From NCBI GenBank assembly GCA_022402535.1, contig JAKRSD010000020.1:1-64000 (forward strand): a stretch of DNA of 64,000 nucleotides, given 5' to 3'. The translations under genes were made by a program, and so were the position numbers. The notes under the pieces are model-generated. The model worked only from the letters and a program-made list of their open reading frames with translations, was not told where the DNA came from and made no database searches. Positions 5,881 to 13,679 of this stretch are shown piece by piece; position 1 is the first letter of the stretch, and each line of letters starts with the position of its first letter. The DNA is from Flavobacteriales bacterium (GTDB lineage: Bacteria; Bacteroidota; Bacteroidia; CAIKAF01).

Positions 5881-7212
5881 ATGACATTTGAATCATTGCA
5901 GCTCATTGAGCCCATTCTTCGTGCCGTTCAGCAGGAAGGATACACTACGCCCACGCCTATTCAGGCACAGGCCATTCCCATTGTTTTAGCTAAGCGCGAT
6001 ATCCTCGGCTGTGCACAAACCGGCACCGGAAAAACCGCTGCATTCAGTATTCCGATTTTACAATTGCTGAATGCCGGACCCGCAGATGAAAACAACCGCA
6101 AAAAACCGATCCGTTCGCTGATATTAACCCCCACGCGGGAATTGGCCATACAGATCGGAGAAAGTATTGCCGCTTACGGCAGACATCTGCCTTTGCAGCA
6201 TACCGTTATTTTTGGCGGCGTAGGCGAAGCTTCCCAAATTGATGCCCTCCGCAGAGGAGTGGATATTTTGGTAGCCACTCCCGGAAGATTGCTGGACCTG
6301 ATGGACAGACGATTTGTAGACCTGCGCCAATTGCAGATTTTCGTTTTGGACGAAGCAGACCGCATGCTCGACATGGGCTTTATTCATGATGTGCGTAAGG
6401 TGATTGCTAAAATTCCCGTACGTCGTCAAACCCTGTTTTTTTCGGCTACCATGCCGCCCGAAATTCAAAAGCTGGCCGATAACATTCTGACCGATCCGCG
6501 CAAAGTAGAAGTTACTCCCGTTTCTTCCACCGCCGAAAAAGTACGTCAGGAAGTGTATTTTGTAAACAAAAGCAATAAACCCAAGCTGTTGAAGGAACTT
6601 CTTTTGGATGCATCCATCAGCCGGGTATTGGTGTTTACGCGCACCAAACATGGTGCAGACCGTGTGGCCAAAGATTTGGTTAAACATGGTATAGGCGCCG
6701 AAGCCATTCATGGCAACAAATCGCAAAATAACCGGCAAAGAGCCCTTTCACTTTTCAAAAGCGGAGAAATACGGGTATTGGTAGCCACCGATATTGCCGC
6801 ACGCGGTATAGATGTGGAAGAACTTTCGCATGTGGTAAATTTTGAATTGCCCAATGTTCCCGAAACGTATGTACACCGCATAGGACGTACCGGACGGGCC
6901 GGTAATTCGGGCGTGGCGATTTCATTCTGCGAACCCGACGAAATGGCTTACCTGAAAGACATCCAAAAACTCATCGGGAAAACGATTCCCGTAGTGGAAA
7001 AACATGCCTTTCCGTTAGATTTTTCGCTGACTCAGCAGGAAAAAGAAAAGCAACGCGAAACCGGCAGAGGCCGTGTGGGGCATGGACAAAAACCCGGAAA
7101 TCGTTCTGGGGCCGGTAAAAGCCACCGAAAAGGAAAACCGGCTTCGGCTGCATCCTCTAATTCGCCACAACGACCCGGCGATAAGAAAAAAGTAGTTAAA
7201 CGTACTTTTTGA
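5881..7212 (+). CDS. DEAD-box ATP-dependent RNA helicase (RhlE-like)
   Basis: The protein unwinds short RNA duplexes, typically in ribosome assembly or mRNA decay. The 443 residues include a Q motif ([11 protein letters not shown]), Walker A AQTGTGKT near residue 46, [13 protein letters not shown] in [13 protein letters not shown] near 155, and SAT near 188. The RecA-like domain 2 signature [10 protein letters not shown] is near 333. From about residue 385 the tail is basic, low complexity and Gly/Lys/Arg-rich, as expected of an RNA-binding extension. The RhlE type is judged by length and motif spacing. It is followed by a strong terminator. Confidence 0.93.
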
Positions 7213-7343: not shown

Positions 7344-8255
7344 TTATTGCAATGCAAATTTGATGGGCAATACCATTAAGGCTGCTACCTTTTTCCCGTC
7401 TTTTTCGGCAGGAATCCAATCCGGCATTTTTTCAACAACTCTCATTGCGGCTTCATCGCAGCCATAACCAATTCCCCGTTTAACCTGAATGTTTTTTATT
7501 TTCCCATCGGTGCTCACGGTAAATTCAACAATAACCTTCCCTTCAATATTAGATTCTATAGCCGTTTGGGGATAAATCAGATTATTCCCGATGAATCTAA
7601 CCATTTCCATTTGTCCACCCGGGAATTCAGGGAGCTTGTCAAATTCATTTTCAATTTGTATTGAGGGGTTTTGCCCCATCAGCCGGGGACTAAAAAATAC
7701 GCCCGAGCCGATAAATGTAAACGCCAATGCCATCAATAGCAGGCTACTTTTTTTGTTTTTTGATTTGTGCATCATTTGTATTCGTGTTTTGATTTGTGAA
7801 CCTGTGAAATAATTTACCGGAACATTCATCCCTGCCAATGCGCAGGACAAAAGGGTGTCGCAGTATGCCGAAATGTTTGTTCCCGTTGCCAGTACCTGTT
7901 CATCGGCACTAAACTCATGAGCCTGGCGCAACTCACGTTCTATCAAAAAGTAAAAGGGATTAAACCATCCAAATATTTTCAATAATTCGAAACCCAAGAC
8001 ATCAATCGTATGTCCGAACCGGATATGCGCCTTTTCGTGTAAAAAAACGATTTGAAGTTTTTCGCCATGCAGAGAAGCCGGAACAAAAATAGATTGCCCG
8101 AATGAAAAAGGATATTTAATTTTTTCACTGAAATAGGTGGTAAAACCGTCTATCTGCTTCTTCTCACTCTGATACATAATTCGGAATATGCTCCCAAGTT
8201 TTACGGTAAAAAGCAGCAATCCTATAACAACAGGAATAACATAAAACAATGTGTA
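7344..8255 (-). pseudogene. M56 (BlaR1/MecR1-like) sensor peptidase, 3' part, separated by an insertion
   Basis: This is the C-terminal 303 codons of a membrane sensor of the BlaR1/MecR1 type, which in intact systems cleaves or triggers loss of the BlaI repressor. It has a membrane segment (FYVIPVVIGLLLFTVKL), the M56 zinc motif HEKAHIRFGH, the second-ligand region (ELRQAHEFSADEQVL), another membrane helix (SSLLLMALAFTFIGSGVFF) and a C-terminal TonB-like domain (residues with NIEGKVIVEFTVSTDGKI). The 5' 91 codons lie at 11233-11505, beyond the inserted element. Removing the element and one copy of its 8-bp target duplication restores a continuous frame through GEISF-YTLFYV. A TTG at 8249 could in principle start this fragment, but there is no sign that it is translated. 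Confidence 0.9.
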
Positions 8256-8263
8256 AAAAGAAA
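8256..8263. repeat. Target site duplication, left copy
   Basis: AAAAGAAA, identical to 11233-11240. The two copies directly flank the inverted ends of the inserted element. Eight bases is the usual duplication length for IS1595-family insertions. Confidence 0.92.
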
Positions 8264-8286
8264 GGCAATGATATACGAGTTTACAC
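8264..8286 (+). repeat. Left terminal inverted repeat of the IS1595-type element
   Basis: Begins GGCAATGATATAC and ends TTTACAC. It matches the reverse complement of 11210-11232 at 21 of 23 positions, the mismatches being at positions 14 and 16. Confidence 0.92.
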
Positions 8287-8352
8287 CATATTCAAATGAA
8301 TTGAAAATGAGAAAGCCATGTAATTTTATATCATTGATTGTTAGTAAAGTAT

Positions 8353-8362
8353 GATAGTTTTG
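8353..8362 (+). promoter_or_regulatory. Possible promoter of the cargo gene pair
   Basis: TAGTTTTG at 8355-8362 fits TAnnTTTG, with ATTG 18 bases upstream (8333-8336) as a weak -33 element. It lies inside the element, just past its left end, and about 90 bases before the first cargo gene. Confidence 0.35.
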
Positions 8363-8449
8363 AACATTATATTAACAATTTTAACATTCAGATATGTAAT
8401 ACTGCCTGATTTTTGCGTTCTTTTGTGATACAAAAAACAAATCTATCTT

Positions 8450-8836
8450 ATGGAACCGAATGAAATCAGAACAAATCATTTCTACATGGAAAGCTTGGGA
8501 GATGATGCTGAGATGGTAGAGGTGAGAGAACCTGTAACAATTATAAAAAACAAAGTTACGGGTAATTATGCAGTATTTTTAAGTGAAGGAGATTTTGGTC
8601 CTATTATCATTCACAAAGACAAAGAAGATGCCGTAAAAAGATTTATTGATGCTTTTGGAGCAATGTTGGTTTATAAGTCTTTAATGGTAGCCCCAGGAAT
8701 AAAAGAAAAGTTTTTAAGCAATTGCAGGTCAAATCATACAGAAACTTATGAAAAAATAAATGGGCAAATAAATTTGATTGTAAATGAATCTGCCGAGAAA
8801 TTTACTAAAATAAAAAAAGACTTGGTAGAAGCTTAA
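8450..8836 (+). CDS. Unrecognised cargo protein of the IS1595-type element (128 aa)
   Basis: I do not recognise this family. The 128-residue product has no signal peptide or membrane helix. Its first half looks like alternating beta strands followed by a helix (VTIIKNKVTGNYAVFLSEGD, then IIIHKDKEDAVKRFIDAF). That layout vaguely recalls small HicB-like folds, but the match is too weak to name it. The C-terminal third is Lys/Glu-rich and helical. It sits inside the mobile element, 16 bp before a second unknown gene on the same strand, so the two probably form an operon. It faces the transposase/P63C genes convergently. Composition is strongly AT-rich, which supports transfer with the element. 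Confidence 0.7.
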   Translation: MEPNEIRTNHFYMESLGDDAEMVEVREPVTIIKNKVTGNYAVFLSEGDFGPIIIHKDKEDAVKRFIDAFGAMLVYKSLMVAPGIKEKFLSNCRSNHTETYEKINGQINLIVNESAEKFTKIKKDLVEA

Positions 8837-8852
8837 CCTATTCTCTTGCCCA

Positions 8853-9254
8853 ATGAACCAAGAATTTTATAATATAATAATATCCCCAAAAAGGCTGTTT
8901 TCATTTATAGAAATAGAATTAGGTGCTTGTCCTACATCTTTTAATTGGATGATAGAAAATAATGGTTTTTATGAACAAATAAAACAAGCATTTATTTTAA
9001 GCGAAGCATATGAACAAGCATCAATAATGTCAATTGATGAGAAATATGCTGTATTTTTTTCATTAATTAGATTAGATGGACACCCTCTTCTAGTAGAAAG
9101 AAAAGAACATTATGGAACTGAAGATTTATTAATGATATGTTCTAAATCAGGGTATCCATTTAATGAGGCATTTCATTATTGTATTGAGGATGCACTTATA
9201 AAGGAAAAATGGGCTTCATTTATTGATTCTAAACACATCAAAACAGGGGAATAA
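8853..9254 (+). CDS. Unrecognised cargo protein of the IS1595-type element (133 aa)
   Basis: No known family is recognised. The 133-residue protein is acidic and predicted mostly helical (FYEQIKQAFILSEAYEQASIMS, then FNEAFHYCIEDALIKEKW), with no membrane or secretion signal. It starts at an ATG 16 bases after the stop of the preceding cargo gene. It ends 11 bases from the stop of the convergent P63C gene, so the element is tightly packed. The pairing of two small adjacent genes invites comparison with toxin-antitoxin or defence cargo. Nothing in the residues proves either. Confidence 0.7.
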   Translation: MNQEFYNIIISPKRLFSFIEIELGACPTSFNWMIENNGFYEQIKQAFILSEAYEQASIMSIDEKYAVFFSLIRLDGHPLLVERKEHYGTEDLLMICSKSGYPFNEAFHYCIEDALIKEKWASFIDSKHIKTGE

Positions 9255-9265
9255 TAGTATATTTA

Positions 9266-10237
9266 CTATCTTTTGGGAGGAGGAACTTTTGAAATAGCCT
9301 TGAGAGTTGTCAAAAACTCATTTTTAACAGGTTCTTTATCTTCTTTGTATTCTAAATCTTCATACTTAAGTTCAAGCTGTCCGTTTTTCCTTGCAACCAT
9401 TTTGTTGAAGTTTGACATAAACTCTTTCCAATTATCAGAAATTCTCATAATTGCAATTACTTGATTCAATTGAGCAGACAAGTGTGGGTGTCCCACATCT
9501 GCCGTAAGACTTTGAAAGTATCTGGCAGTAGGATTACCTGATTTGCTTTTTGGGGTTTTTGTTTTAAGTTCATCTAATACGCCATTTGGCAATTGCTCAT
9601 AGATAACCTTGTTTGTCCATTTCCCAACTACGCCCGGTCTTTTCTTTATGTCATTAACCGTGTAATCCCATCCATTTAATCTAAAAACTTCTTGATAAAA
9701 TGTATCCGGAAAAGTTTTTTGCCATTTGAGCAACTCTTCTGAAATATAAGCCTTTAGTATCGCTTGTAATTCAAATCTTTCTCTATCGTATTGGTATCCT
9801 GTGGCTTCATCTATTAAAGCAATTATGCTGACTTTCTTTAGTGCCTTTGACAGAAAATACGCACTATCAACCACCGAAACTTCGATTTCAGAGCCGGTTC
9901 GACTTGCATCTATTATTGCATCAATTATGTCAATAAGCAGGGTTGCCTCATATCCGTATGTACTTGATTGTGAGCCACCTGAAGTTTTTCGTTCAAATTC
10001 TATTGGATTATTTAGCCGGTTCAGAATATCAGCCGGCAAATGTGCTTTTATTTCAGGTTTATTTACAAATTTTTGAAGCCATGCACCTGATGTTGCTGTT
10101 GTACCTAATGATTTTTGAATGCCTCTTCCTGACAATACCCTCGTTCCATCATCTAAAACATAGCAGGGTATTTTTATGTCTCCTATTGTTAGAGGTGTTT
10201 TTTCAGAGCCGTGTGTTGCTTTTGGTAATTTAGTCAT
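9266..10237 (-). CDS. P63C-domain protein encoded with the transposase
   Basis: The 323-residue protein has a P63C domain in its middle and C-terminal part, seen in IALIDEATGYQYDRERFELQ, the LKAYISEELLKWQKTFPDTF region, NGWDYTVNDIKKRPGVV, and the TNKVIYEQLPNGVLDEL and LTADVGHPHL segments. P63C is known from phage and mobile-element proteins, often downstream of Bro-N or KilA-N DNA-binding domains. The N-terminal part (LSGRGIQKSLGT, GYEATLLIDIIDAIIDA) would be the matching DNA- or protein-binding module. Its ATG lies within the last codons of the transposase gene (8-base overlap ATGACTAA), so the two are probably translationally coupled. A role in regulating or targeting transposition is plausible but inferred. 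Confidence 0.85.
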   Translation of the reverse strand: MTKLPKATHGSEKTPLTIGDIKIPCYVLDDGTRVLSGRGIQKSLGTTATSGAWLQKFVNKPEIKAHLPADILNRLNNPIEFERKTSGGSQSSTYGYEATLLIDIIDAIIDASRTGSEIEVSVVDSAYFLSKALKKVSIIALIDEATGYQYDRERFELQAILKAYISEELLKWQKTFPDTFYQEVFRLNGWDYTVNDIKKRPGVVGKWTNKVIYEQLPNGVLDELKTKTPKSKSGNPTARYFQSLTADVGHPHLSAQLNQVIAIMRISDNWKEFMSNFNKMVARKNGQLELKYEDLEYKEDKEPVKNEFLTTLKAISKVPPPKR

Positions 10238-11153
10238 TTGATATAAGAGATTTATAGGTTAAACGCCCGTCAATATTAGCTAAAACAAGATTAAATCTAT
10301 CACAAGTGCTTGATTTTCTTGTATTGTATCTTAATGTAAACTCAGAAACGTACTGCTGTAAGTGTTTTGTACTAGCCCAATGGTAAATACCGTCTATGCC
10401 TCTTTTAAGGTGAGACCAGAAGTTTTCAATTCCGTTTGTTGAAACCTGTCCGTTTACATATTGGTTTGCTGCGTGGTAAACACGGTCATGGATATAAACT
10501 TTGTTAAGGTTGTTGTATGCGCCCCATTCATCCGTGTAGACATTAGAGCCTTTTTCTATATTAGCATGGATGATAGGTACAATGGTTTTTGCCTTGGTAT
10601 CAGTGACAACTTCTGCATAAACATCACCGTTTCTCTGTTTCATGCCCAAAACGGCTGCTTTTGATTTGGTAGAGCGCCCCTGAGAACCTTCTGTCTTTTT
10701 AGAACGATGCTTGTTTTTCTCTTTACCTCCTATGTATGTTTCATCAACTTCAACTTCATCTTCCAACATGGCAGCACGGAAGTTAGGGTGGTCAAACGCA
10801 TAGCGTAAACGGTGAAGCATGAACCATGCTGATTTTTGGGTAACGTTAATGTCTTTAGCCAACTGATGTGATGATATACCTTTCTTATGGCTGCTGAAAA
10901 GGAATAAAGCCATAAACCATTTTTGTAACGGAATCTTTGTGTTTTCAAAGATTGTACCTACCTTAACGTTAAATTTTTTGTTTGTGTCTTTGCATTTATA
11001 TTGCCCGTTGGACAATTTGTACACTACTGAATCAGACTTGAAAGGTGAAACAGGTGTACCATTCCATATAATATCTTCAAGTTGTTTAATGCATGATTCC
11101 TCTGTCGGGAATGCCTTAACTAAATCGAATATGCTTTTGAACTCTGATACCAT
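10230..11153 (-). CDS. IS1595-family (ISXO2-like) transposase
   Basis: This is the transposase of the inserted element, 307 residues. The ISXO2-type DDE catalytic domain shows the first Asp in EDEVEVDETYIGGKEKNKHR, the second in SNVYTDEWGAYNN, and a third-block segment NGIENFWSHLKRGIDGIYHW. The N-terminal region, which is a zinc ribbon in many family members, has lost most of its cysteines (SPFKSD and KCKDTNKKF in place of CxxC pairs). This cysteine-poor form appears in a Bacteroidota subgroup. Helix-turn-helix-like LAKDINVTQKSAWFMLHRLR follows. The frame is intact, so the element may be active. Confidence 0.93.
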   Translation of the reverse strand: MVSEFKSIFDLVKAFPTEESCIKQLEDIIWNGTPVSPFKSDSVVYKLSNGQYKCKDTNKKFNVKVGTIFENTKIPLQKWFMALFLFSSHKKGISSHQLAKDINVTQKSAWFMLHRLRYAFDHPNFRAAMLEDEVEVDETYIGGKEKNKHRSKKTEGSQGRSTKSKAAVLGMKQRNGDVYAEVVTDTKAKTIVPIIHANIEKGSNVYTDEWGAYNNLNKVYIHDRVYHAANQYVNGQVSTNGIENFWSHLKRGIDGIYHWASTKHLQQYVSEFTLRYNTRKSSTCDRFNLVLANIDGRLTYKSLISND

Positions 11154-11163
11154 AACTTCTAAT

Positions 11164-11174
11164 TATGGTGTAAA
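11164..11174 (-). repeat. Subterminal repeat of the IS1595-type element
   Basis: TATGGTGTAAA, the reverse complement of TTTACACCATA at 8280-8290 next to the left end. It lies just before the transposase start codon (ATG at 11153), so it could be both a transposase binding site and part of the promoter region. Confidence 0.5.
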
Positions 11175-11209
11175 GATATGCTCAATAATTTAAACTTCCA
11201 AATTTATTT

Positions 11210-11232
11210 GTGTAAAGTTGTATATCATTGCC
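11210..11232 (-). repeat. Right terminal inverted repeat of the IS1595-type element
   Basis: Read on the minus strand it begins GGCAATGATATAC and ends TTTACAC, matching the left end at 21 of 23 positions. It adjoins the target duplication at 11233-11240. Confidence 0.92.
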
Positions 11233-11240
11233 AAAAGAAA
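11233..11240. repeat. Target site duplication, right copy
   Basis: AAAAGAAA, identical to 8256-8263. On the coding strand this is the TTTCTTTT that encodes the last Ser-Phe of the 5' sensor fragment. Confidence 0.92.
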
Positions 11241-11499
11241 TTTCACCCGAGTTATCCGAAGTAATATCTTCACCATTCTGCAGATTGATTTCGGGTAAAG
11301 TAATCAGGTAGATTTCCTCCTTATTCAGAAGGCTCATGGGAAGGAATGGAGATAAGGTAAATATAACCGTACCAAGAATTAAAAATAGGCGGGCATAATT
11401 ACCGTTCAGTCTCTTTTTGAGCAATAGAATATATAACAAATACAGCAGTCCGGTTCCCAAAATCAGTTTCCCGATGGATATGAAAAGTGTTGTCTGCAT
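11233..11499 (-). pseudogene. M56 (BlaR1/MecR1-like) sensor, 5' part, cut by the insertion
   Basis: This encodes the N-terminal membrane part of the sensor whose remainder is at 7344-8255. Two hydrophobic helices are visible (LFISIGKLILGTGLLYLLYILL and ARLFLILGTVIFTLSPFLP). After residue Phe of GEISF the frame runs into the element and stops after 16 foreign codons, at 11182. The ATG at 11499 is the likely start; a TTG at 11505 overlapping the blaI stop codon is an alternative. The two parts together give an uninterrupted protein of about 392 residues. Without the M56 domain this fragment cannot act as a protease. Confidence 0.88.
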
Positions 11500-11501
11500 T
11501 A

Positions 11502-11873
11502 TCAATTGTTTTTGGGTAAATCTTTTTTAATGTTTTTGAGCAGTTCGTCAATATCTTCTGTACTGAAGTTATTGTTGCCGGCAAAAAACGAAACCAATTG
11601 CTCAAACGAACCCCCGAAGTAATTTTTTACCATCCGGTTTAAACTTCCCTTCAGATACTGTTCTTTGCTTACGGTGGGAATATATTTATGTGTCCGGCCA
11701 AACGCTTCATGTTTTACCCAGCCTTTATTTTCTAATATACGTACAATGGTAGAAACCGTATTGTACGCGGGTTTGGGCTCAGGAAACTCTTCCACGATGT
11801 CCTTCACAAACCCCCCGTTGAGCTTCCACAAAATGTTCATTACCTCTTCTTCGGCTTTGGTAAGTTCTTTCAT
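11502..11873 (-). CDS. BlaI/MecI/CopY-family transcriptional repressor
   Basis: The 123-residue winged-helix repressor shows the family pattern: LTKAEEEVMNILWKLNGGFVKDIVEEFP, then PAYNTVSTIVRILENKGWVKHEAFGRTHKYIPTVS (recognition helix and wing), and a C-terminal dimerisation helix region. Such proteins bind palindromes with TACA/TGTA ends and are removed when the partner M56 sensor detects a signal, often a beta-lactam. It lies directly upstream of the sensor gene and overlaps its possible TTG start. A perfect palindrome just before its start codon suggests autorepression. The repressor is intact although its sensor is broken. Confidence 0.93.
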   Translation of the reverse strand: MKELTKAEEEVMNILWKLNGGFVKDIVEEFPEPKPAYNTVSTIVRILENKGWVKHEAFGRTHKYIPTVSKEQYLKGSLNRMVKNYFGGSFEQLVSFFAGNNNFSTEDIDELLKNIKKDLPKNN

Positions 11874-11883
11874 TTTTCAAACC

Positions 11884-11925
11884 TACAACTAAATATTTAG
11901 TTGTACAACTATTTTTTTAGTTATA
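11884..11925. promoter_or_regulatory. Tandem palindromic operators for the BlaI-type repressor
   Basis: Bases 11884-11905 form a perfect 22-bp palindrome, TACAACTAAAT followed by its reverse complement. A second, imperfect copy of the same design (TACAACTA... to ...TTATA) occupies 11904-11925, sharing two bases with the first. They lie 11 to 52 bases before the blaI start codon. TACA/TGTA ends are what BlaI/MecI proteins recognise, so this is very probably the autoregulatory operator. Confidence 0.8.
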
Positions 11926-12016
11926 AGTTGCATCTGCCTGTTTTAGTGTGCATTAAAATTTACATTACCTCTAATCTCAGAAACAGAGAATCCCCTGCTT
12001 TTCCAAAAACTCTGGT

Positions 12017-12024
12017 TACCTTTG
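12017..12024 (+). promoter_or_regulatory. Likely -7 promoter box of nadE
   Basis: TACCTTTG matches TAnnTTTG and lies 23 bases before the nadE ATG at 12048. The -33 element is not evident. Confidence 0.4.
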
Positions 12025-12047
12025 TCCTGTAAGCATAAGGTGATGTA

Positions 12048-13679
12048 ATGAAGATAGCACTGGCCCAGATTAACCCCGTCATCGGGGATTTTGAACGAAA
12101 TGTTTCCCTGATTTCAAATAATATACACCAGGCCAAAGCCATGGGTGCCGAATTGGTGGTTTTCCCTGAATTATCCATTTGCGGCTATCCGCCGCAGGAT
12201 TTTTTAGAATTTTCTGATTTTCTGCACCGGTGCAATCAGAGTGTGCAACACATTGCGGATCTATGCCGGGGTATCGCAGCCATTGTGGGTGTACCCACCC
12301 TGAACCCCAATATTGAAGGGAAAAACCTATACAATTCTGCCCTGTTACTGCATGAAGGTAAAATCATCGGCGAAGCCCACAAGGCCCTGCTGCCAACCTA
12401 TGACATATTTGACGAATACCGCTATTTTGAACCGGCCCGTCATTTCAACTGTGTGGAATACCAAGGCGTTCGCATTGCCCTTACGGTTTGTGAAGACATC
12501 TGGGATATTGAAGAAGATTTGTTATACACGGTTTCTCCGCTAGATGAACTGGCCCGCCAAAAACCCGAAATCGCTATTAATATTTCGGCTTCGCCGTTTT
12601 CGTATGCACAGGCTTCCGCGAGGAAAAAAGTAGTAACCCATTGGGCTAAAAAACTGGGCATTCCGCATGTGTATGTAAACCATGCCGGGGCACAGACCGA
12701 ATTAATCTTCGACGGAGGTTCTCTGGTTTCGGATATTGAAGGAAAATTGGTGGCCGAACTGACTTATTTTCGGGAAGACCTGCAACTTGTGGATACGCAA
12801 AATCTCCATTCGGAAAACTTTGCAGAAAAAGCGGATAATAAAACCGAAAAAATCTATGAAGCATTGGTATGCGGTGTGCGCGATTACTTTTCGAAACTTC
12901 GTTTTCAAAAGGCAGTGCTGGGTTTATCCGGCGGAATAGACAGTGCCCTGACTGCCGTGCTGGCCTGCGATGCCCTGGGTGCTGAAAACGTACACGGGCT
13001 GCTGATGCCTTCGCAATATTCTTCAGACCATTCGGTAGCCGATGCCGAACAATTGGCCCGCAACCTGGGCATGTCTTACGATATCGTGCCCATAAAAACG
13101 GTGTACGGAGCCTTTGAACATCAGCTTTCGCCATTGTTTGCCGGCAAACAACCCGATTTAACCGAAGAAAACATTCAGGCCCGCATACGCGGAACACTGC
13201 TCATGGCTTACAGCAATAAATTTTCACATATCCTGCTGAATACCTCGAACAAAAGCGAAAATGCCGTGGGGTACGGCACGCTCTACGGCGATATGTGCGG
13301 CGGATTGGGTGTGCTGGGCGATGTGTATAAAACCGAAGTGTATGCCCTATCTGAATTTATAAACCGAAACGGAGAACGTATTCCCAAAAACAGCATAACC
13401 AAACCACCCAGTGCCGAACTGCGCCCCGACCAAAAAGACAGCGACAGTCTGCCCGAATATGATGCTCTGGATGCCATATTATACCAATATATTGAGGAAC
13501 GGAAAGGCCCGCAGGAAATTACCGATATGGGCTTTGATGGGTCTTTGGTGTTGCGCGTACTGCGTATGGTAAACCGGGCCGAATTTAAACGCAAACAGGC
13601 AGCGCCCATTTTACGGGTTTCGCCCAAGGCGTTTGGGCATGGCAGGCGTTTGCCGATAGTGGGTAAGTATTTGGAGTAA
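12048..13679 (+). CDS. nadE: Glutamine-dependent NAD+ synthetase
   Basis: The enzyme makes NAD+ from deamido-NAD+, ATP and ammonia released from glutamine. The 543 residues hold an N-terminal nitrilase-type amidase domain and a C-terminal synthetase domain. The amidase has the Glu-Lys-Cys triad: Glu in VVFPELSICGYPP near 44, Lys in HKALLPTYDIFDEYRYF near 112, Cys in LTVCEDIWD near 148. The synthetase has the ATP-pyrophosphatase loop LGLSGGIDSALTAV near residue 290, and later LLNTSNKSENAVGYGTLYGDMCGG. The length fits the shorter two-domain class rather than the roughly 650-residue class. Confidence 0.96.
   Translation: MKIALAQINPVIGDFERNVSLISNNIHQAKAMGAELVVFPELSICGYPPQDFLEFSDFLHRCNQSVQHIADLCRGIAAIVGVPTLNPNIEGKNLYNSALLLHEGKIIGEAHKALLPTYDIFDEYRYFEPARHFNCVEYQGVRIALTVCEDIWDIEEDLLYTVSPLDELARQKPEIAINISASPFSYAQASARKKVVTHWAKKLGIPHVYVNHAGAQTELIFDGGSLVSDIEGKLVAELTYFREDLQLVDTQNLHSENFAEKADNKTEKIYEALVCGVRDYFSKLRFQKAVLGLSGGIDSALTAVLACDALGAENVHGLLMPSQYSSDHSVADAEQLARNLGMSYDIVPIKTVYGAFEHQLSPLFAGKQPDLTEENIQARIRGTLLMAYSNKFSHILLNTSNKSENAVGYGTLYGDMCGGLGVLGDVYKTEVYALSEFINRNGERIPKNSITKPPSAELRPDQKDSDSLPEYDALDAILYQYIEERKGPQEITDMGFDGSLVLRVLRMVNRAEFKRKQAAPILRVSPKAFGHGRRLPIVGKYLE

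Follow-up and report, generated by a model that had tools for sequence, protein, structure and literature searches.

Within a 64,000-nt stretch of a Flavobacteriales bacterium genome (positions 1–64,000 of contig JAKRSD010000020.1, assembly GCA_022402535.1; hereafter called the window), an M56 membrane-protease gene behind a BlaI-type repressor gene is split by an element of the IS1595 family. This raises the question of what the element carries besides its transposase gene, and what these additional genes might do for it. We found that the transposase gene overlaps the start of a partner gene, whose product combines a phage antirepressor-type body with a short C-terminal tail, and that in related elements the tail stays with the transposase while the body is exchanged. 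The explanation we favor, with somewhat more confidence than doubt, is a transposase-docking tail that bears a swappable regulator and is made in step with the transposase. The parts of the element are as follows.

8264–11232, minus strand: IS1595-family element including extra genes, 2969 bp, with inverted ends and an 8-bp target-site duplication (TSD)
8264–8286, no strand: left terminal inverted repeat GGCAATGATATACGAGTTTACAC, 23 nt
11210–11232, no strand: right terminal inverted repeat, 23 nt
8256–8263, no strand: left copy of the TSD, AAAAGAAA, directly outside the left inverted end
11233–11240, no strand: right copy of the TSD, AAAAGAAA, directly outside the right inverted end
10230–11153, minus strand: transposase, ISXO2-like, 307 amino acids (aa) (PF12762, 152.8 bits; NF033547, 215.5 bits)
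9266–10237, minus strand: transposase-coupled partner of the P63C/antirepressor type, 323 aa (PF10546, 112.4 bits)
10230–10237, minus strand: overlap of partner start and transposase stop, 8 nt, ATGACTAA, start offset -8
9269–9322, minus strand: putative docking-type C-terminal tail NEFLTTLKAISKVPPPKR, residues 306–323, with a helix at 307–316 after a lower-confidence linker
8450–8836, plus strand: cargo open reading frame (ORF), 128 aa, no recognized family
8853–9254, plus strand: cargo ORF, 133 aa, no recognized family

The original prediction had described an IS1595-type element with 23-nt inverted ends and 8-bp direct repeats at both flanks, and all of this was confirmed. The ends are 91% complementary (21 of 23 positions), AAAAGAAA abuts each of them, and an independent search of the transposase surroundings for inverted ends combined with an 8-bp duplication gave a single solution in the window. 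The transposase, which is present in one copy in the genome, scored far above the cut-offs of PF12762 (27 bits) and NF033547 (75 bits). Its residues D137, D208, N240, E243, and K250 (numbering of the window protein) are invariant across a 54-row transposase alignment, and it is predicted to adopt an RNase-H-like DDE fold, the best PDB matches of the model including the ISCth4 and Mos1 transposases. Judging by its ends, the element may belong to an ISNwi1-like sub-group. A search for RNA families gave no match, and a promoter/terminator scan gave signals no more than in shuffled sequences.

The window element shares its transposase domain, the inverted repeats at its ends, and the duplication of 8 bp with other IS1595 (ISXO2-like DDE) elements, and a gene-splitting insertion of this family is by itself ordinary. 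However, the handling as an ordinary insertion sequence (IS) in the original prediction did not hold, the transposase-coupled partner gene having been overlooked. The 2969-bp element contains four ORFs of at least 60 aa (neither its size nor the number of ORFs had been given before) and does not fit the simple type of about 1 kb with the transposase as the only gene. In a paper on plant-pathogen genomes (PMC11092175), IS1595 is described as about 1 kb long with one ORF, whereas the elements delimited here span about 2–7 kb, and most of them have a coupled, tailed partner, often together with variable cargo.

The partner of the window element belongs to the P63C family (p63 of Myxococcus phage Mx8; 112.4 bits with PF10546, gathering cut-off 26.1). 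It also matched phrog_2384 and the "anti-repressor Ant" group phrog_2899 (E = 9e-07), and its fold weakly matched those of Bro-N and antirepressor proteins; a PDB fold search with the partner model gave no significant match. By homology, the protein is a putative phage antirepressor. In its AlphaFold2 model (predicted local distance difference test score 90.6), the tail forms a separate short helix (residues 307–316) that is preceded by a weaker linker. For the two cargo ORFs, no family, PHROG, or viral-contig relative was found.

For comparison, we used a first set of 80 related transposase loci from GTDB genomes (loci of this and the further sets are designated by L numbers). Including the window element, 28 elements could be delimited by fixed ends and 8-bp duplications, and the mean AT fraction of their TSDs was 0.88. 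A coupled ORF directly follows the transposase in most of the 80 loci, and in 30 of 47 relatives its start has the same offset of -8, i.e., an 8-nt overlap with the transposase stop. Among 39 long partners, Pfam assigned 19 to P63C, 12 to RhuM, six to KilA-N, and one to Bro-N. Otherwise, the slot is occupied by a stub of about 40–80 aa or by other modules; in L022, L024, and many proteobacterial elements, the short partners are scarcely longer than the tail motif.

Some loci have unusual occupants behind the transposase. L041 (6964–8710) and L054 (6959–8676) carry a two-gene module of a helix-turn-helix (HTH) protein and a 170–180-aa protein, the tail being C-terminal on the second gene; the HTH protein of L041 has a weak IrrE-like M78 match, and the same tailed 170–180-aa protein occurs in L091 near 8170–8706. 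In L045 (6909–7929), a 265-aa protein without Pfam match, by eye resembling a proteasome-type hydrolase, is found together with a 77-aa ORF with a terminal tail. The partner body of L043 (2464–3189), an unrecognized domain, is by eye similar to a separate cargo protein of L023 (L023_2).

Nearly all partners bear one short helical tail of the pattern F-x-x-x-L...P, which has the form LSDFNKKLKKGLNYNPKE or FDKTLKGLLSVPPPKK in nearly all of them and EFLTTLKAISKVPPPKR in the window. In a joint alignment of the 39 partners, the only invariant columns were D143 and the tail residues L312 and P320. A hidden Markov model (HMM) of the tail, run over 9292 ORFs, gave 47 matches below E = 1e-3, 33 of which were seeds, and the top 50 matches all resemble partner genes or a partner fragment; shuffled ORFs reached at most 9.2 bits with this first tail profile and 10.6 bits with a second one. 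Where the transposase identity was at least 50%, a tailed ORF directly followed the transposase in 44 of 53 loci, and in four more a later gene was tailed. The few transposases that are extended at the C-terminus did not contain the motif, so that no in-frame fusion of transposase and partner came to light.

Nearly all long partner bodies belong to the phage antirepressor-type families P63C, KilA-N, Bro-N, and RhuM. The control sample covered two of these families, P63C and RhuM, with homologues collected elsewhere. With the second profile, the seeds of which include some of the control loci, the tail was detected in 13 of 18 homologues whose locus contains an IS1595 transposase, but in only one of 98 phage or chromosomal homologues without it (p = 2e-12); with the first profile, built from the first locus set only and hence with the control loci excluded from its seeds, the counts were 11 of 18 and none of 98 (p = 4e-11), both p-values overstating independence because the homologues are interrelated and include a few near-duplicates. 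The sole tailed unlinked homologue, a fragment, is closely similar to the window protein. Of the five linked homologues that did not score, three (L201, L208, L209) have, by eye, a similar motif at the N-terminus.

While the tail follows the transposase, the body does not. Over 40 elements, the more alike two transposases are, the more alike are their tails (Mantel r = 0.68, p ≤ 2e-4), and this holds among pairs of differing partner family as well. For the partner family itself, the correlation with the transposase was 0.08, and the nearest transposase had the same partner family in 20 of 40 cases. In L047 and L049, the DNA is 98% identical through the transposase stop, the P63C bodies share 27% of their amino acids, and the DNA returns to 90% identity near the tail. 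Since the two transposases are 100% identical (protein level, rounded) and the partner bodies nevertheless only 27%, bodies are quickly replaceable. L052 (KilA-N) and L058 (Bro-N) likewise differ by a swap of the body between the transposase stop and the tail.

The insertion, the coupling of the two genes, the conservation of the tail and its near-restriction to IS1595-linked genes, and the exchange of bodies are thus established. The following scenario would account for them. A 2.97-kb IS1595-family transposon entered the membrane-protease gene of a BlaI–M56 operon with formation of an 8-bp duplication, thereby splitting the gene. It makes two coupled proteins, the transposase and, via the overlapping start codon, the partner, in which a linker connects a regulator of the phage antirepressor type (P63C in this element) to the short helical tail. 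The tail might dock on the transposase or on the transposase–end complex, and the body might add DNA binding or regulation and in this way steer or control transposition. The body, be it P63C, RhuM, KilA-N, Bro-N, another module, or a mere stub, is freely exchanged, whereas the tail stays with the transposase. For such a partner, the role of an accessory or targeting factor is our first choice over that of an inhibitor.

Several observations weigh against this explanation. Docking of the tail and an effect on transposition are suggested by linkage and conservation, and the correlation between tail and transposase is in itself no proof of contact, because both are inherited together. L109 and L169 have an upstream transposase but no tail, and for some partner bodies, such as that in L045, a capacity to bind DNA is not apparent. 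A loosely similar SDFDK segment is native to the ends of free RhuM proteins, so that the likeness of the tails may partly reflect shared ancestry or convergence. Furthermore, the tail profiles give no score for the variant motifs of distant IS1595 groups, for which equivalence is a matter of by-eye alignment, and among the matches listed for the second and third samples described below, many of the more distant IS1595 copies lack a clear partner.

The SDFDK-like ends were seen in many chromosomal RhuM proteins away from IS1595 (L115–L134), where they resemble the start of the tail; they are a possible source of the motif.

Among the alternatives, the one that fares best is that the partner with its tail acts as an inhibitor of transposition or as a timing switch, which would bind and restrain the transposase while the body ties this restraint to the state of the host or of a phage. 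Such a role would predict co-made overlapping genes and conservation of the tail just as well, and antirepressor-type bodies are regulators; but the rapid exchange of bodies and the sufficiency of bare stubs elsewhere are not explained by restraint as such, and we regard this role as rather unlikely. A little less probable still is that the bodies are plain cargo, i.e., antirepressors or defence-like modules that help the host or the element, with the tail serving not for contact with the transposase but as a tag, e.g., for stability or degradation control. The bodies do vary widely, and other elements bear clear cargo, namely a SocA_Panacea antitoxin-type protein, a KAP NTPase, and an SDH-type protease. 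A tag on cargo would, however, not be expected to track the transposase instead of the body, to be nearly absent from unlinked homologues, or to occur as a near-bare stub right behind the transposase.

IS passenger genes are known and insertion into a gene with a TSD is routine, so that an ordinary IS1595 insertion with nothing but unrelated passenger genes has to be considered; yet the identity, position, overlap, and tail of the partner are far from random, and the comparison of linked and unlinked homologues contradicts this possibility unless the unlinked sampling is misleading, which leaves it very improbable. That the tail segment is conserved as a DNA site needed by the element, the peptide being incidental, is the least credible proposal, since, although homology between otherwise differing elements resumes near the tail, synonymous codons vary (median synonymous divergence dS 1.13 versus nonsynonymous divergence dN 0.27), which shows that the tail evolves as a peptide, and the position of the segment in the gene changes (N-terminal in L043, L201, and L208) but is always in frame.

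The favored arrangement of tail and regulator was also followed into more distant parts of the family, using a second sample of IS1595 copies on viral contigs and a third IS1595 sample, restricted to the matches listed. In the second sample, many IS1595 copies at 40–46% identity have a basic stub, such as MKTPPELDRIADRVLAYRPKPKTKAAKRRKRR, that overlaps by 4 nt. The first part of stubs of this type could be aligned by eye with the Bacteroidota tail over 14 gap-free positions, which suggests that the distant stubs may be equivalent to this tail. A similar motif heads P63C (L285), RhuM (L231), Bro-N (L081), and C5 methyltransferase (L245) proteins. We tentatively consider, at somewhat less than even chances, a widespread two-protein IS1595 system in which the docking tail would recruit exchangeable phage-derived DNA-binding regulators as targeting or control modules, its simplest version being represented by the bare basic stubs.

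Two loci of this kind concern methyltransferases. In L245 (4409–5677), a tail-like N-terminal segment precedes a C5 DNA methyltransferase (PF00145) behind an IS1595 transposase, and in L319 such a segment precedes what by eye appears to be a second methyltransferase, again behind an IS1595 transposase.

Accessory proteins of transposases are known from other elements, such as IstB of IS21 and TnsC/TniQ of Tn7-like elements. The partner described here is similar by analogy in that a second protein is co-made with the transposase, and binding to it and shaping of transposition are proposed. In contrast to these systems, the scanned partners include neither an AAA+ ATPase nor any protein related in sequence, and bodies of unrelated families can replace one another; the partner is not a member of this group. 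IS1595 elements are already known, and so are passenger genes and the families of the bodies. A search of the open literature, with ISfinder and the subscription literature outside its range, revealed no description linking the three, and because of this range the novelty of the tailed partner is provisional.

Should the tail indeed dock on the transposase, an IS family would possess an accessory factor that, according to the literature searched, has apparently never been tested and whose role could be probed directly with the natural body swaps. The scattered occurrence of some KilA-N, Bro-N, RhuM, and P63C genes on bacterial chromosomes would then have a reason, and some annotations as "hypothetical" or "virulence RhuM" would refer to transposon parts.

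The genes flanking the element belong to the interrupted operon:

7344–8255, minus strand: C-terminal part of the interrupted M56 gene, Peptidase_M56 plus TonB_C, zinc motif HEKAH
11241–11499, minus strand: N-terminal part of the interrupted M56 gene, ATG at 11499, just past the BlaI stop
11502–11873, minus strand: BlaI-type repressor, 123 aa (PF03965, 111.5 bits)
11884–11925, no strand: two overlapping BlaI-type operator palindromes, 11884–11905 perfect and 11904–11925 with one mismatch

As originally predicted, the two M56 halves (91 and 303 codons, figures that proved correct) are in frame: a scripted join of the flanks left a single uninterrupted frame of 394 codons, or 392 when counted from the likely ATG, and across the proposed junction ...GEISF-YTLFYV... 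the rebuilt protein aligned end to end and gap-free with M56–TonB homologues. The protease domain was detected with 68.3 bits (PF05569, cut-off 31). The predicted BlaI partner was also found, as the M56 gene directly follows a gene for a repressor with a Penicillinase_R domain (PF03965) and a perfect operator palindrome upstream (11884–11905). In these features, the locus resembles BlaR1/MecR1–BlaI pairs. The difference is that the C-terminal half of the M56 protein terminates in a TonB_C domain where a penicillin-binding sensor domain would be, and because of this the label "antibiotic sensor" is unsupported; BlaR1 models scored far below their cut-offs with this protein.

The split M56 gene and the BlaI gene are the only matches of their kind detected in the genome, and a whole-genome search for a BlaI regulon revealed a perfect site only at BlaI's own promoter; the best other site had one mismatch, and no nearby gene was identified. 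The operon would now be without its protease and still repressed. An intact counterpart of the M56 gene, expected in relatives, was present in other genomes of the class, behind BlaI and mostly in frames of about 390–420 codons, but no empty syntenic site was seen in the same family, where none of 15 genomes had a BlaI match and the nadE neighbourhoods contained neither BlaI nor a helicase. The suggestion that the insertion is recent is weakly favored by the identical TSDs and the open halves, with no empty-site relative among the genomes compared.

Targeting of BlaI–M56 loci by IS1595 was considered and rejected: such a pair lies near the transposase only in L046 and L096, which we judged, without a formal test, to be within chance because these pairs are common.

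A few further observations were made. At the single BlaI promoter of the genome, the two BlaI-type operators overlap by two bases. Cargo elsewhere includes the SocA_Panacea antitoxin-type protein in L093 (8433–8927), the SDH-type protease in L051 (2498–3664), and the KAP NTPase in L072 (8973–10322). Finally, IS1595 elements can be nested: an element at 9440–12441 lies inside that at 5906–12736 of L053, and each of them has inverted ends and is flanked by a perfect 8-bp duplication.

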